Positions 35,114 to 50,939 of a stretch of 52,839 nt of DNA are shown here, one piece after another. The position numbers were made by a program, and so were the translations under genes. The DNA is taken from positions 1 through 52,839 of IMG/VR virus record IMGVR_UViG_3300046501_000372. One strand, written 5' to 3'. Origin of the DNA: a virus. Each line of letters starts with the position of its first letter. Positions within the stretch are counted from its first letter, which is position 1. Below the pieces are notes generated by a model that was given only the letters and a program-made list of their open reading frames with translations, did not search any database and was not told the origin of the DNA.

Positions 35114-36175
35114 ATGATGACCACCCCAGAGACCCCAAGCCCAGTCGAGCAGGTGGATCGGGAGGCTGTGCACGTGATGGAGCGCGTGCAGCACGTCCTT
35201 TCCATGGTCGCAAATTACTCGGATGCTGTTGCCAATGGCGGCGAGTTTGCCGACCGGCACCTAGCCGATATGCAAGCGATGAACGGCGACGTGATCGCGG
35301 AGGACTCTCGCTTCCTCGCCCGCCACCGCCTAGCCGAGCGCGCCCGCCTCACCACGGACAGGGCGGTTGGGGCGGAGGCAAAAGCGGCCGGTCGCAACCT
35401 CTATCTGTTGCAGGGCGACAACGCTCGCATGGCCGATGCACTGCGCCAGTGCCGAGATCAGTTCGCTTTCTACGCCCGCGAGCATTATGCGGCCGGGAAG
35501 AGCGAGAAGGGCGACACGAACACCCGGTTCGCTGACATCGCAAACGGCGCGCTGACCGCCGTGAAGCCCGCCGCCCTATCCCCGCCAATCCCAGAGCAGG
35601 GGGGGCGGGAGGCTTTGGAGGCGTTGCGTGCCGAACGTGCCAAGCCGCTACAGGGGCCGGAACACGGCGCTTGGGATCGCGGTCGTCGGTACGGGTTGGA
35701 TGATGCGATCCGGATAGTCGAAGCCCTCGCCGCCACCCCGCCCGTCCCTGCGATCAGCGGTGTTTGGCGCTCAATGAGCACCGCGCCCAAAGACGGAACC
35801 CGCATCATGCTCTGGCTCGGCCAGCCGTGGTCGTGCGCGGAGTTCGGGCATTGGTACGAGCCGTGGTCCAACTGGCAAACGGACCGGCATTTTGCGCCGC
35901 TCGAAACTGAAGAATACAGCGGGATCGGTGCAGAAGTGCCTATCGCGTGGCAGCCCGAACCGTGCGCTCTTGATCCCGTCCCCACGATCAGCGGGGAGGG
36001 GGAGAAGCTGCGGGAGGCGTTGATCGAAGCGCGCGAGTTGATCCTTGAACTGTCCCATGCCCGAGGCTGTGAATACGAAGGCACGGACGAAGACATGATC
36101 GGTTTCATCGACGCCGCTCTCGCCACCCCCGACGCCGCACCGATCGGGTCTGCCGACGCGGGGGCCGGAGCATGA
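35114..36175 (+). CDS. Accessory protein with DUF551-like domain
   Basis: 353 aa, MMTTPETPSPVEQVDREAVH (GGGAG 11 bases upstream). N-terminal helical part; then WRSMSTAPKDGTRIMLWLGQ and VPIAWQPEP, the DUF551 pattern (W..tAPkdGt... W.P.P). A C-terminal helix (EALIEARELILELSHARGCE) repeats the wording of phage accessory genes. Its sequence is less biased than flanking structural genes. Function unknown. Confidence 0.62.
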   Translation: MMTTPETPSPVEQVDREAVHVMERVQHVLSMVANYSDAVANGGEFADRHLADMQAMNGDVIAEDSRFLARHRLAERARLTTDRAVGAEAKAAGRNLYLLQGDNARMADALRQCRDQFAFYAREHYAAGKSEKGDTNTRFADIANGALTAVKPAALSPPIPEQGGREALEALRAERAKPLQGPEHGAWDRGRRYGLDDAIRIVEALAATPPVPAISGVWRSMSTAPKDGTRIMLWLGQPWSCAEFGHWYEPWSNWQTDRHFAPLETEEYSGIGAEVPIAWQPEPCALDPVPTISGEGEKLREALIEARELILELSHARGCEYEGTDEDMIGFIDAALATPDAAPIGSADAGAGA

Positions 36176-45431: not shown

Positions 45432-46918
45432 CCCGCATGGCTCGCTTCCGCGCATGGCTTGCGGGCAGCACTAGCGCACCGCCCGCCCCACTGGTCGACG
45501 ACCGCCCCGTCGCCAAGGGCATGACGGTCAGCACGGCCGCGCAGTGGGAGGCCAACCGTACCGGCCGCCCCGTGCCGATGCCCGATGAACTGTTCGCACG
45601 CCCCGTACCGCCGCCGGGCGTGCTACCGGTCGGCATGGCGATGGACGCGCTGCCCGCACTGACCAGCATGGCCGCGTGGGGACTCGCTTCGGCGTTCCAC
45701 GAGGGGCTCGCCTTCCCGGGCTATGCGTATCTGGCCGAGCTCGCGCAGCGCGCCGAGTACCGGCACATGGCGGAAATATGGGCCGAGCACGCGACCCGCA
45801 AATGGATCAAGCTGTCCGGTCCCGACGAGGATCGGCTCGGGCTGATCGAAGCGGAGTTCGAACGGCTGAACGTCCGCGCGTTGTTCCGCCAGGCCGACGA
45901 AAAGGACGGCCTGTTCGGGCGGTCGCATATCTACATGGACTTCGGCGACGGCGAGCGCTCGCAGCGGCTTATGGTCGACGCGCGCAAGGTGACGCCCGCC
46001 CGTCCGCTCCGTTCGCTGCGCGTGCTGGAAGCCATGTGGTGCTACCCGGGCCAGTACGAGTCGATGGATCCACTCAGCCCCGACCACTACCGCCCGCGCG
46101 CGTGGTATGTGCAGGGACGGACCGTGGCGGATAGCCGACTGCTCACGTTCGTGCGGAACGAAGTGCCCGATATGCTCAAGCCGGCCTATGCGTTCGGCGG
46201 CCAGTCCGTCACGCAGATGGCCAAGCCTTACGTCGACAACTGGTTGCGCACCCGGCAGTCGGTCAGCGACGTGACGAGCGCCTTCAGTCAGATGGTGCTC
46301 GCGACCGACATGGGTTCGACGCTGACCGGCGGCAGCGGCGCCGATCTGTACGCGCGCGTCGACATGTTCAACATGACGCGCGACAACCGCGGTACGATGG
46401 TCATCAACAAGGATAGCGAGGAATTGACGAACGTCACGACCCCGCTGTCCGGGCTCGACAAGCTGCAAGCACAAAGCCAGGAACAACTATCGTCCGTCGC
46501 GCGCATCCCCCTGTCAGTCTACCTGCAGGTCACGCCGACCGGCCTGAATGCGTCGAGCGAGGGCGAGATACGGTCGTTCTATGCGGACGTGCAGGCGCAT
46601 CAAGAAAAGGACTATCGACCCAACCTTCAGCGGCTGCTCGAGATCGTGCAGCTGGGGATCGACGGCACGATCGATACGGACGTGAAGTTCACGTTCGAAC
46701 CGCTCTGGCAGATGTCGGCCGTGGACGAAGCGACCGTGCGCAAGACCGAAGCGGAAACGGACCAAATCTACGTGGTGGCAGGTGCGGTCAGCAACGAAGA
46801 GGTGCGCGAGCGCCTGCGCGAACAGGACGGCGGAATGTACCAGTCGGTCGGGCTGACCGGCGATGCGCCCGAGCCGGAAGAGGACGAGGATGAAGACCCC
46901 GCCCCTACCGAAGAGTAG
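45428..46918 (+). CDS. Portal protein, DUF1073-type
   Basis: 496 aa. GYAYLAELAQRAEYRHMAEI, LGLIEAEFERLNVRALFRQA, GLFGRSHIYMDF, and LDKLQAQSQEQLSSVARIPL followed by SVYLQVTPTGLNASSEGEI form the DUF1073 portal signature. The acidic tail (PEPEEDEDEDP) is usual. Forms the dodecameric ring for DNA entry. The Pfam name links this domain to fused anti-CBASS proteins in other phages; no such fusion is seen here. Confidence 0.85.
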   Translation: MTRMARFRAWLAGSTSAPPAPLVDDRPVAKGMTVSTAAQWEANRTGRPVPMPDELFARPVPPPGVLPVGMAMDALPALTSMAAWGLASAFHEGLAFPGYAYLAELAQRAEYRHMAEIWAEHATRKWIKLSGPDEDRLGLIEAEFERLNVRALFRQADEKDGLFGRSHIYMDFGDGERSQRLMVDARKVTPARPLRSLRVLEAMWCYPGQYESMDPLSPDHYRPRAWYVQGRTVADSRLLTFVRNEVPDMLKPAYAFGGQSVTQMAKPYVDNWLRTRQSVSDVTSAFSQMVLATDMGSTLTGGSGADLYARVDMFNMTRDNRGTMVINKDSEELTNVTTPLSGLDKLQAQSQEQLSSVARIPLSVYLQVTPTGLNASSEGEIRSFYADVQAHQEKDYRPNLQRLLEIVQLGIDGTIDTDVKFTFEPLWQMSAVDEATVRKTEAETDQIYVVAGAVSNEEVRERLREQDGGMYQSVGLTGDAPEPEEDEDEDPAPTEE

Positions 46919-47678
46919 CGTCCCGCAGCGCCCGTCCGCCGCCACGCGCGAGCGGTACGAGAAGGCGCTGGACGGCATGGTCGACAAGATGGGCCGATCC
47001 TTGCGCAAGTGGCTGCTCGCCGCGTACCGGCCGCACGCCATCGTCCTGACCGCCATGGACGCCAGCGCGGCCAGTCTGCTGCAGGCGGCCATGCGCAAAC
47101 TGACCAAGCTATGGCTCGCGCGGTTCGACGAGTTCGCAAACCCGACCGCGGATCTGTTCGTACGCCGCACGCGAGACGGGCTGATGCGCGACCTGCGCAA
47201 CGCCGGGTTCACGATCCGTATGCGCCAGACGCCCGCCATGACCAATGCTTTTCAGGCGGTCCGCAACGAGAACGTCAGCCTCATAAAGTCGATCGCCACG
47301 CAGCATCTCGGACAGGTCGAACAGCTGGTGCAGCGGACCGTCGCGAGCGGCTTCGATATGTCAGTGCTGGCCGGCGGGCTCGAGAAGCAACTGGGCGTCA
47401 CCAAGCGACGGTCCGCCTTTATCGCGCGCGACCAGTCCGCCAAGTCACTGTCCGCCATGCAGCGCCAGCAGTATCTCGACCTAGGCTATACGAAGGGCAA
47501 ATGGCTGCATAGCGCCGGCGGCCATACGCCACGGCCCGAACACGTCGCGTTCAGCGGCAAGGTGTTCGACCTGCGCACTGGCCACGACTTTGAGGACGGC
47601 GAGGGTCCGACCTTCCCGGGTCTACCGGTCAACTGCAAGTGCGTGTTCGGTCCGGCTATCGAGGGTATTGACTACTAA
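46890..47678 (+). CDS. Minor head protein, Mu gpF-like
   Basis: 262 aa from MKTPPLPKSSVPQRPSAATR; the ATG lies inside the portal gene end after GAGGACGAGG. LEKQLGVTKRRSAFIARDQS and KWLHSAGGHTPRPEHVAFSG then FPGLPVNCKCVF are the Mu gpF/SPP1 gp7-like signature with its Cys pair. Needed for head assembly or DNA ejection. Its end contains TTGACT with TAGACG 17 bases later (47668-47696), a possible promoter for the RNA that follows. Confidence 0.85.
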   Translation: MKTPPLPKSSVPQRPSAATRERYEKALDGMVDKMGRSLRKWLLAAYRPHAIVLTAMDASAASLLQAAMRKLTKLWLARFDEFANPTADLFVRRTRDGLMRDLRNAGFTIRMRQTPAMTNAFQAVRNENVSLIKSIATQHLGQVEQLVQRTVASGFDMSVLAGGLEKQLGVTKRRSAFIARDQSAKSLSAMQRQQYLDLGYTKGKWLHSAGGHTPRPEHVAFSGKVFDLRTGHDFEDGEGPTFPGLPVNCKCVFGPAIEGIDY

Positions 47679-47696: not shown

Positions 47697-47975
47697 GGTC
47701 GCACGGTCGTTATACGGTCGGTTGAAGCAAAGCGGACACGCGGGGGCAGTACCCGCCACCTCCACCATCGACCCCGCCTACGCAGCGGCCAAAACCGAAC
47801 CGGGGCACCGGCTTAGGGACGGCGACAACGGTAGGTGTTGCAACCGGGGTCGTTGATGGGGGCGAAACAGGATCGACCCGCTGCGGCGAATACTGTTTAG
47901 ATGGTAGGAGCGAATAGGGTCGGCAGGCAGGGTGTCGTTAGGGGGCTTCGGTCCTTCCTGCTACGGGATGCGTAG
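47697..47975 (+). ncRNA. ssrA-like: Circularly permuted tmRNA-like RNA (ssrA type)
   Basis: Acceptor piece first: T-stem GCGGG/CCCGC (47740-47744, 47752-47756) with a seven-base loop, then CACCTCC ACCA ending at 47767; the preceding GCGGACACGCGGG resembles the CGGACGCGGG of bacterial tmRNA. After a 90-base spacer whose ends pair (CGACCCCG with CGGGGTCG), a 5' piece begins GGGGGCG (47858), pairing with CACCTCC at six of seven positions, followed by GGATCGAC as in tmRNA 5' ends. CCGCT (47878) pairs with AGCGG (47731) where helix P2 should lie. Order acceptor-spacer-5' end is that of permuted tmRNA genes. The T-loop GGCAGTA departs from the tRNA norm. Confidence 0.5.
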
Positions 47976-48036
47976 AGTTAACGCATGAAACCGGCTGGTT
48001 CGCTAGTCATTGCGGGTGCGACCCCCGCCGCATCCC
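47966..48036 (+). other. tRNA-like fold without anticodon arm
   Basis: GGATGCG (47966-47972) pairs perfectly with CGCATCC (48029-48035), followed by TA at positions 8-9; GCGGG TGCGACC CCCGC (48012-48028) is a well-formed T-arm directly before the 3' acceptor strand. Between them only a GGCTGG-TTCG-CTAGTC hairpin, so no canonical D and anticodon arms. Could be part of the tmRNA-like transcript or a degenerate tRNA. Confidence 0.35.
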
Positions 48037-48098: not shown

Positions 48099-50939
48099 AT
48101 GACCCTTGTAAATCTCGTCAAGTTCACGGCTGATACGACCGGTACGGGTGCGATCACCGTCGGCCAGGCCGTTCCGGGCTATCGCGGACGCGAAGTGCTG
48201 ACTGACGGCGGGGTGTACAGCTACAGCATCCAGCAGGACGCCGACTGGGAGTTCGGGCGCGCTACGTATCTGGCCGCATCGAACGCTTTCGTTCGTACGC
48301 CGTTCGGTTCGTCCAATGGGGGCGTGGCGATCGATCTGCAACCTAACGCACCGGTCGCATTGATCGCACTGGCCGAAGACCTCATGGCGCTGGCGGGCGG
48401 CGATGTCGATCCGACCGCGCTGGCTAACGAGGTTGCGCGCGCCACCGCGGCGGAACAGTATCTGTCCAACCGTATTGTCGCGGCGTCGCTCGGCATCCTC
48501 AGTTATACGACCCGTGCCGCCCTGTACGCCAACACGACCGCCGCGACCGGTACGCTCGCGCAGGTGACGGCCGACCCGACGCCCGCATACAATAATTTCT
48601 ACCGGTTCAACGGCGCGACGTGGGATATCGACACAGCGTTTGGACAGGCATTCGCCGCGACCGTGCAGCCGCAGATCGATGCCCTGTCCGCCCGCTTCTC
48701 CACGGACGTTCTGTTGCTCGCCGGCGGGCGAATGGTCGCGGGCGCCATCATCGATAGCAACGGTGGTCGTATCGTCGATCTGGGCGCCCCGCTCAGCCCG
48801 AACGAACCAGCGCGAATGGTCGAACTGACCACGCTGGTCGGACAGGTAGCAGCCGCGCTGCAGGGCAATCTGGACGCGCAGATCGCCCGTCTCGACGCGA
48901 TCCCCAAGCTGATTTCGTCGAACGATTACGCGCCGATCTACAGTATCGAGCGGCCTAACGCGGTGTTCGCTACGTTCTTCGGCGCTACGGTCGACGCGTT
49001 CTATATTCCGGTGCATACGCCGACCGACGAACTGACGACGAGCGCGCTGACAATCTGGCCCGGCTCGCTCGCCGGCAAGACGACTCTTCGGGTGTCGCAG
49101 ATCCGCCGGCCGCTTGCTGACGGGGATGTCGTCAACGGGTCGGGCAATGCACTGGCACCCGGATTCGGGCCAAACGACGTGACGAACTCGACGGTTGTGC
49201 CGTATTTCATCGTCGTCGTCGTGCCGAACTACCTGACCAACCAGGCGCAGGCCGTTACGCTCGACCTCGCGCCGTTCGGCTTGCATCGTGCCGACACGAT
49301 CTATTTTTACATGGTGGAAGTGCTGGCCGCCGACGGCTCGGTCGCTATCGCTGCGATGGGCAAGGGCAATCAAGTGCCAGCTGCGACCCCGGGCTGGGCG
49401 CGCGGCTGGTATCGCCAGAGCGGCGGCACGGGCTATAACCGGTTGTCCGAGCCCGGCACGGTCGGCGACGCGTACGCCTTCACGTTCTCGCGCAAGGCGA
49501 TCCGTCCAGCGACCGTCAAGGTGCGCAGCTTCCAGCAGGCGGGTGATACCCCCAATGCGTTCGGTAACGTCAAGGTGCTGCCCGATGTGACCGTGCGGGA
49601 CGCGTCTAATCCGCAGGGCGCCGTCGTGCAGGGCGGCGAGGTGACTTTCCCGGTTCCAGCCAATGTGACGGTGACGGCAGAATCGATCACGCTGCAGCCC
49701 GGCGGATATGCGTCGCTCTACTATGCGCCGCTGGGCGGTTCGGTCGTCGTCACCCCAGCCGGCGGCGGCGCGGCGCTGGTCGAAGGCACGAACTACACGA
49801 TCGACTATGCCGCCAACGCGATCCGCGGGATCGGGGCGACCCGCAGCGTGACGGTCGCGTACACCGGACAGCCTGTTCGGTACGATATGGTTACCTACGG
49901 CACGAACAGCAAAGTGCGCAGTCTGACGACCGGTCCGGTTCGCGGGTTCGATGCGTGTGAGCATGCCCCCCGTCTGCGAGGCACGCCCGTACACCCCGAT
50001 TACGGTCCGTCACTGACCGCCCCCGTTGTCTCGACGCCGCAGCGCCCGCTGTTCATGGTGCGGACGAGTGCGGTCAGTTCGGACGTGATCCCGCTGCACG
50101 ATGCGCAGACCGGCGTCCGCGAGCGCGACCAAGCGGAATATACGACGCTGATGGCGCGCAACGCCCGGCTGCTCGCTCCGGTCATCGCGCGGGCACGGCA
50201 GGGCCTGCCCATCATCATGACCGGCTATGGTGACAGTCTGACCGCGCAGGGCGACAGCCAGAGCATCACCGTGGCGAACGGCGATCGGGACACGCTCGCG
50301 TCGTTCTACCAGCCGCTGGAAGCCGGCACGCTCGGCCGCCTGGCCGCCGACACGTTGGCGCGCATCACGCGCTATCCCGGCGACATGGGTGCGACGGCGC
50401 ATCAGCATCTCGGCTGGAACTGGCAGATCAAGCGCGCGCTCGAACTGCTTGGCGGGTCGACCGTCACGTACCTGAACCGGGGCATCGGCGGGTCGAACCT
50501 CGACACGACCGGCACGGGTGCCAACAACCCTGCCCGCCTCGCCCCGGTCTATGCGGACGGCGCGCACCTGTTCCCGTTCTGCGTCGGCGAGAACGACAAG
50601 GGGCAGTCGTATATCTACGACCGCGTCATGTCGCTGATCGAGGCGGTTCGCGCGGGCGCCCCGAACATGGTGCTCTATCTCGTCCCGCCGCCGTTCAACG
50701 CGCTGTACAGCCCGAACATCACGATAGAAATGTCTGGATCCACGTACAAGATGGCCTGCGACGCCGCGACCGATGCGGGGATTGCATACGTGCCGCACGC
50801 TTTGATTCAAGGACCGGACGCGCAAGGGCCTTCCCGTCTCTCGCGGCAGGATTACAGCTTGTGCAACGGAATAAACCATCCGGGACCGACGCAACTGTTG
50901 GCAATCGGCGAGCTCGCCGCTACGCCGTTCCTTCTATAA
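48099..50939 (+). CDS. Tail fibre/tailspike with SGNH esterase domain
   Basis: 946 aa from the ATG of MTLVNLVKFTADTTGTGAIT, the usual start of this fibre family; the longer form from 47985 would run through RNA structure. The middle has an Ala/Asp coiled segment and beta domains. Residues about 706-946 are an SGNH/GDSL hydrolase: GDSLTA with Ser713, NRGIGGSNLD, FCVGEND, and NGINHPGPTQ with His927; the usual Asp three residues before His is not evident. Probably deacetylates host surface glycan. Confidence 0.82.
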   Translation: MTLVNLVKFTADTTGTGAITVGQAVPGYRGREVLTDGGVYSYSIQQDADWEFGRATYLAASNAFVRTPFGSSNGGVAIDLQPNAPVALIALAEDLMALAGGDVDPTALANEVARATAAEQYLSNRIVAASLGILSYTTRAALYANTTAATGTLAQVTADPTPAYNNFYRFNGATWDIDTAFGQAFAATVQPQIDALSARFSTDVLLLAGGRMVAGAIIDSNGGRIVDLGAPLSPNEPARMVELTTLVGQVAAALQGNLDAQIARLDAIPKLISSNDYAPIYSIERPNAVFATFFGATVDAFYIPVHTPTDELTTSALTIWPGSLAGKTTLRVSQIRRPLADGDVVNGSGNALAPGFGPNDVTNSTVVPYFIVVVVPNYLTNQAQAVTLDLAPFGLHRADTIYFYMVEVLAADGSVAIAAMGKGNQVPAATPGWARGWYRQSGGTGYNRLSEPGTVGDAYAFTFSRKAIRPATVKVRSFQQAGDTPNAFGNVKVLPDVTVRDASNPQGAVVQGGEVTFPVPANVTVTAESITLQPGGYASLYYAPLGGSVVVTPAGGGAALVEGTNYTIDYAANAIRGIGATRSVTVAYTGQPVRYDMVTYGTNSKVRSLTTGPVRGFDACEHAPRLRGTPVHPDYGPSLTAPVVSTPQRPLFMVRTSAVSSDVIPLHDAQTGVRERDQAEYTTLMARNARLLAPVIARARQGLPIIMTGYGDSLTAQGDSQSITVANGDRDTLASFYQPLEAGTLGRLAADTLARITRYPGDMGATAHQHLGWNWQIKRALELLGGSTVTYLNRGIGGSNLDTTGTGANNPARLAPVYADGAHLFPFCVGENDKGQSYIYDRVMSLIEAVRAGAPNMVLYLVPPPFNALYSPNITIEMSGSTYKMACDAATDAGIAYVPHALIQGPDAQGPSRLSRQDYSLCNGINHPGPTQLLAIGELAATPFLL

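Follow-up and report, generated by a model that had tools for sequence, protein, structure and literature searches.

A permuted tmRNA-like gene in a contractile-tailed phage with a conserved tRNA-like domain and no canonical tag

Analysis of a 52,839-nt phage record (the whole stretch of DNA analysed, hereafter the window) reveals, at positions 47706-47902, the tRNA-like domain of an alphaproteobacterial-type circularly permuted tmRNA. The missing tag, and not the permuted order, is the unusual part of this gene. The reading that we favour, with confidence that is evenly balanced, is that of a permuted phage tmRNA that has kept its tRNA-like domain and precursor design and has lost or re-tooled the mRNA-like domain with its degradation tag. 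As part of this reading, the gene appears to have been inherited at the same genomic junction as a complete homologue in a related phage, IMG/VR 3300034069_000537 (hereafter L150).

Genomic context and permuted layout

Genome annotation searches identify the record as a contractile-tailed phage genome (terminase, portal, MuF, major capsid, tail sheath, and baseplate). The tmRNA-like element lies between a MuF-type head gene and a structural gene for a 946-aa protein, all on one strand. A promoter and terminator scan found neither, and no SmpB gene was found in the phage genome, so that host SmpB would be needed. Elsewhere in the window, ARAGORN calls a tRNA-Leu(CAG) at 35500-35585 on the minus strand that has no Rfam tRNA match and is probably a false call. 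The features of the locus are as follows:

46863-47678, plus strand: MuF-type minor head protein gene, upstream context (PHROG 324, E 1.1e-57; 54% identity to L150)
47705-47719, plus strand: GGTCG-TTATA-CGGTC, a small hairpin of the acceptor piece (5' part)
47706-47767, plus strand: conserved part of the acceptor piece (RF01849/RF04321; 56/62 identical to L150)
47731-47735, plus strand: P2 3' strand AGCGG, part of the acceptor piece
47740-47756, plus strand: T-arm, with T-stem GCGGG/CCCGC
47757-47763, plus strand: 3' acceptor strand CACCTCC
47764, plus strand: A73
47765-47767, plus strand: CCA
47768-47857, plus strand: spacer (precursor segment) of 90 nt, closed by an 8-bp stem
47858-47882, plus strand: 5' end of the coding piece, with acceptor 5' strand, D-loop region, and P2 5' strand (Rfam; 21/25 identical to L150)
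47883-48036, plus strand: divergent or replaced mRNA-like region (alignment to L150 at shuffle level)
47910-47975, plus strand: hypothetical divergent tag frame, GCG AAT ... GAT GCG TAG, with UAGGA directly before it
47965-48036, plus strand: hairpin set closed by GGGATGCG/CGCATCCC, with a cloverleaf-like outline (z -1.41, not significant)
48099-50939, plus strand: downstream structural gene, 946 aa (weak PHROG 807 match; alignments)

The order along the strand is T-arm, acceptor with CCA, spacer, and then 5' end, and the first-pass annotation had described these parts, including the pairing ends of the spacer, correctly. Specifically, the coding piece starts at 47858 with GGGGGCGAAACAGGATCGAC and comprises acceptor 5' strand GGGGGCG, D-loop region AAACAGGATCGAC, and P2 5' strand CCGCT. 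The AlaRS identity elements G3-U70 and A73 and an encoded CCA are all present. The acceptor stem forms 6 of its 7 pairs, with a C6-A67 mismatch in place of the U6-A67 pair of L150. Between the two pieces, the proximal 5 bp of P2 are formed, and the distal part is weak or lost, its partner CGATC being gone.

The small hairpin at 47705-47719 has counterparts in related phage tmRNAs (GATCG-TAATT-CGGTC and GGCCG-TAATT-CGGCC), with changes in both arms and pairing kept. In the window and in its phage relatives, the distal P2 5' strand can pair locally as well, giving a 5-bp hairpin within the acceptor piece (arms GATCG/CGATC, GGCCG/CGGCC, and GGTCG/CGGTC across phages, with both arms changed), possibly a processing switch.

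The spacer ends, CGACCCCG (47769-47776) and CGGGGTCG (47845-47852), pair perfectly over 8 bp, a stem that 110 of 5000 spacer shuffles reach. The spacer stem of L150 has 10 bp and a sequence unlike that of the window, and end stems of at least 7 bp are present in 115 of the 133 distinct permuted loci with a spacer of at least 20 nt.

Covariance models, gene finding, and folding

The assignment to a phage-borne, permuted tmRNA of alphaproteobacterial type, made in the first-pass annotation, is borne out by the surrounding phage structural genes and by RF01849 (alpha_tmRNA), which matches 47738-47876 with 52.9 bits (GA 50; E 5.9e-12 over the whole window and 1.4e-15 in the genome search). The match spans model positions 90-166 of 355 only, comprising the T-arm, CCA end, spacer, and 5' end. 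The merged model RF04321 (tmRNA_permuted) takes in P2 and covers positions 1-133 of 213, with 37.8 bits, below its GA of 47. The permuted-model check is thus positive for one model and short of the cut-off for the other, and both matches are partial. Rfam models matched nothing past 47905 in the mRNA-like region. ARAGORN called no tmRNA at the locus; because it likewise missed the complete tmRNA of L150, its silence is no evidence against the gene. By folding energy, neither the region as a whole nor its pieces do better than shuffles, and structure is therefore neither supported nor refuted by folding.

A complete homologue at the same junction

L150 carries a complete permuted tmRNA at the same junction of MuF and 946-aa genes (RF04321 86.4 bits, full model 1-213; tag VNDNDAPVAYKIAA; 3' GGCAACAGAA). 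Protein identities between the window and L150 are 59% for the large terminase, 55% for the portal, 54% for MuF, and 65% for the major capsid. The tRNA-like domain is 84-90% identical (56 identical positions in the 62 nt that end the acceptor piece and 21 in the 25 nt that open the coding piece), compared with 61% (177/290) and 66% (256/386) for flanking coding DNA. The P2 strands are CCGCC/GGCGG for L150, CCGCU/AGCGG for the window, and CCGCA/UGCGG for Erythrobacter phage XM05; both sides of the fifth pair covary (C-G, U-A, and A-U, respectively). The distance from the 5' end to the ATG is nearly equal in the window and L150, at about 240 nt, indicating that no simple deletion has occurred.

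Relatives were identified through either MuF or the N-terminal domain of the 946-aa protein; the N-terminus of this protein is conserved and, in alignments, serves as the marker of the junction. A portal query found no relatives. Among the relatives found, L150 alone has a permuted tmRNA there. No tmRNA is present at the junction in L128, L178, L180-184, L216, L224, or L226, and a different structured RNA occupies it in L127, L129, and L229, so that junction content varies among relatives between nothing, other genes, and another RNA. Scans for tag-less relatives yielded L150 only (P2-sequence pattern, IMG/VR) or L150 and chance matches only (16-mers), and the tag-less state is seen in one genome only.

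The other junction RNA (L129:4934-5114, L127:4884-5044, and L229:2763-2937) is about 170 nt long and unrelated to tmRNA. It combines an outer helix with a pseudoknot helix that covaries, both sides having changed in 4 of its 7 pairs; a ACGACCTTCAA segment is invariant, and there is also a strong terminator hairpin. Its strand order recalls an HDV-type double pseudoknot, and it has no Rfam match.

The mRNA-like region and a candidate tag

Past the 5' end of the coding piece, the next 153 nt align to L150 with a score that 133 of 300 shuffles reach. In particular, 47883-48036 contains no distal P2 partner, no ANDN/LAA tag, and no CAACAGAA 3' motif, and a search for this region in other loci and phages returned short matches only, none at a tmRNA. 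This is no ordinary tmRNA, since it lacks both the canonical tag and the 3' domain, a point that had escaped the first-pass annotation. A census of at least 126 distinct permuted coding pieces, each followed by 200 nt or more, from IMG/VR contigs and sequenced phages and with QAA and ASA counted among tag endings, places this absence in context: among the matches listed, a recognisable tag occurs in 125 of 126, the window being the sole exception.

The window offers a single tag-like frame, ANRVGRQGVVRGLRSFLLRDA (ANRV...LRDA, then stop), which has 21 residues, is without NDN, and ends in RDA, not LAA. Given the way in which ClpX recognises the ssrA C-terminus, such a tag would not be an ordinary degron. 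Among dinucleotide shuffles, 0.5% contain a frame of 8-35 aa that starts with A/V-N and ends in A, and 0.02% contain one with a UAR context, by criteria set after the sequence was seen. Resume codons lie 23-27 nt after GGATCGAC in some phage tmRNAs. Unusual tags occur elsewhere in phages: L157:3994-4200 encodes ANDNVVQLSSYAARRKY, without LAA, in a gene with a 3-nt spacer, and the tmRNA tags of L068, L098, and L102 have about 29 residues and end in ASA. Segment 47965-48036 was also considered as a tRNA or second tmRNA and rejected, having no ARAGORN or Rfam match and folding no better than 22 of 200 shuffles.

Proposed mechanism

The most economical reading of these features is that the RNA would use host processing, AlaRS, and SmpB without the usual tag, as a decoy or a non-degron rescue RNA. 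It would be made as part of the late operon, and host tRNA-processing enzymes would excise the spacer, yielding an acceptor piece and a coding stub that the acceptor stem and P2 would hold together. AlaRS is predicted to charge the RNA with alanine via G3-U70 and A73, and host SmpB to bind it; the RNA might then enter stalled ribosomes or titrate SmpB, and the ordinary LAA degron would not be added. The effect would be either a brake on host trans-translation, as with TLD-only molecules, or rescue with a non-degradable tag. A more far-reaching version holds that a complete two-piece tmRNA has become, in this phage, a permuted tRNA-like decoy, or a tmRNA with a non-degradable tag, and overrides host trans-translation late in infection; we regard this version as rather unlikely.

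Alternative explanations

The main competitor is decay: a deletion or replacement may recently have removed the mRNA-like domain of a complete phage tmRNA, leaving a remainder that is not yet eroded and now has no function. We take this to be a real possibility, if short of probable. The C6-A67 mismatch, the loss of the distal P2 partner and the 3' domain, the variability of the junction among relatives, and the single known genome all point towards it. A tRNA-like core far better conserved than the adjoining coding DNA, the compensatory change in P2, the intact spacer stem, and a 5'-end-to-ATG distance nearly as in L150 argue the other way, although conservation of the tRNA-like part would say little on present function if the loss of the mRNA-like part were recent. 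A sub-case of the reading that we favour supposes instead a complete two-piece tmRNA with a divergent, non-ClpXP-type tag, ANRVGRQGVVRGLRSFLLRDA, translated from the GCG resume codon. UAGGA before GCG AAU resembles the U-A-R context of tmRNA resume codons, the start and end pattern is infrequent in shuffles with or without that context, and both the resume-codon spacing of some phage tmRNAs and odd tags such as that of L157 offer precedents. However, the criteria were picked once the sequence had been seen, NDN and LAA are both missing, the frame crosses a GCAGG/CCTGC hairpin, and no relative is available for a conservation comparison; we consider this sub-case distinctly unlikely.

A captured host segment and a former attachment site, both raised in the first-pass annotation, are far less plausible. 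The T-arm and CCA end do resemble host ssrA, with the best host genomes at 89% over 45 nt and 97% over 33 nt. This likeness is confined to the T-arm and CCA, whereas the acceptor piece is, in its 5' part, of the GATCGTAATTCGGTC type of a phage lineage and not of the host type CTATGGCGATAAACGCC. In addition, the genome has no match to PF00589 (tyrosine) or PF00239 (serine) recombinases at E up to 1, both gene halves are present in permuted order around a paired spacer, and a complete homologue occupies the same locus in L150, so that both proposals are disfavoured and, in our judgement, highly improbable. Chance resemblance, for which only the sub-threshold tmRNA_permuted score could speak, has a negligible probability and is refuted by the RF01849 E-value of the genome search and by synteny with the complete tmRNA of L150.

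Comparison with known tmRNAs

As phage tmRNAs, the first-pass annotation had named only the one-piece molecules of mycobacteriophages. Two-piece forms are, however, on record, with 53 such calls among the 133 unique phage tmRNA structures of PMC9004378, and a phage-borne permuted tmRNA as such is therefore not new. We also find complete permuted tmRNAs on more than 100 IMG/VR contigs and in five sequenced phages whose deposited annotation does not list them: Rhodobacter phages RcSimone-Hastad and RcRudolph, Mesorhizobium phage Cp1R7A-A1, and Erythrobacter phages L02 and XM05 (L122-L126). Each of the two Erythrobacter phages also has a gene for an HslV/proteasome-type peptidase some 0.5 kb downstream of its tmRNA (L125:3313-3762 and L126:2536-2982), an arrangement suggestive of a phage tag-and-degrade pair. 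We found no description of a permuted phage tmRNA without a canonical tag in the literature, tmRNA database supplementary tables aside, and priority for the tag-less form is not established.

The window shares with alphaproteobacterial permuted tmRNAs (RF01849/RF04321) the acceptor-before-coding order, GGCAGTA T-loop, G3-U70, A73-CCA, D-loop GGATCGAC, P2 near the tRNA-like domain, and a spacer with paired ends. It differs in having one acceptor mismatch, only a partial model match, a weak or lost distal P2 pairing, and no ANDN...LAA tag or 3' CAACAGAA pseudoknot/helix, the latter being present in L150. The complete phage permuted tmRNAs (L150, the five phages above, and Melnitz, PMC9004378) are likewise phage-borne, permuted, and of alpha type, but a recognisable tag is present in all those examined and not in the window.

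Candidate reasons for a phage to carry a tmRNA are ribosome rescue, protein recycling, and blocking of the host system. Sister phages having the same locus with and without a full tag separate ribosome rescue from protein tagging, so that a Caulobacter or E. coli ssrA background could be used to address the question.

Tag-less systems are also known. The 72 "permuted, no CDS" tmRNA entries in PMC11915505, which also describes mitochondrial tmRNA without a tag frame, share the permuted order and missing frame, but belong, per its main text, to the mitochondrial lineage and not to phages. The tmRNA of mycobacteriophage DS6A is described as little more than the TLD (PMC4131195, PMC11915505), and a similar molecule is stated there to inhibit tmRNA strongly, perhaps by SmpB titration (PMC4131195, citing Mao et al. 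2009). DS6A and the window have in common a phage-borne tRNA-like domain without a recognised canonical tag, with a divergent frame possible in the window; unlike the DS6A tmRNA, the window gene is permuted and keeps a spacer and a 3' stretch. On the reading that we favour, the gene would be like that of DS6A, but permuted; if the more far-reaching version is true, it would be the permuted counterpart of the TLD-only tmRNA of DS6A, and a sister phage would retain the complete form, which resembles the ancestor.
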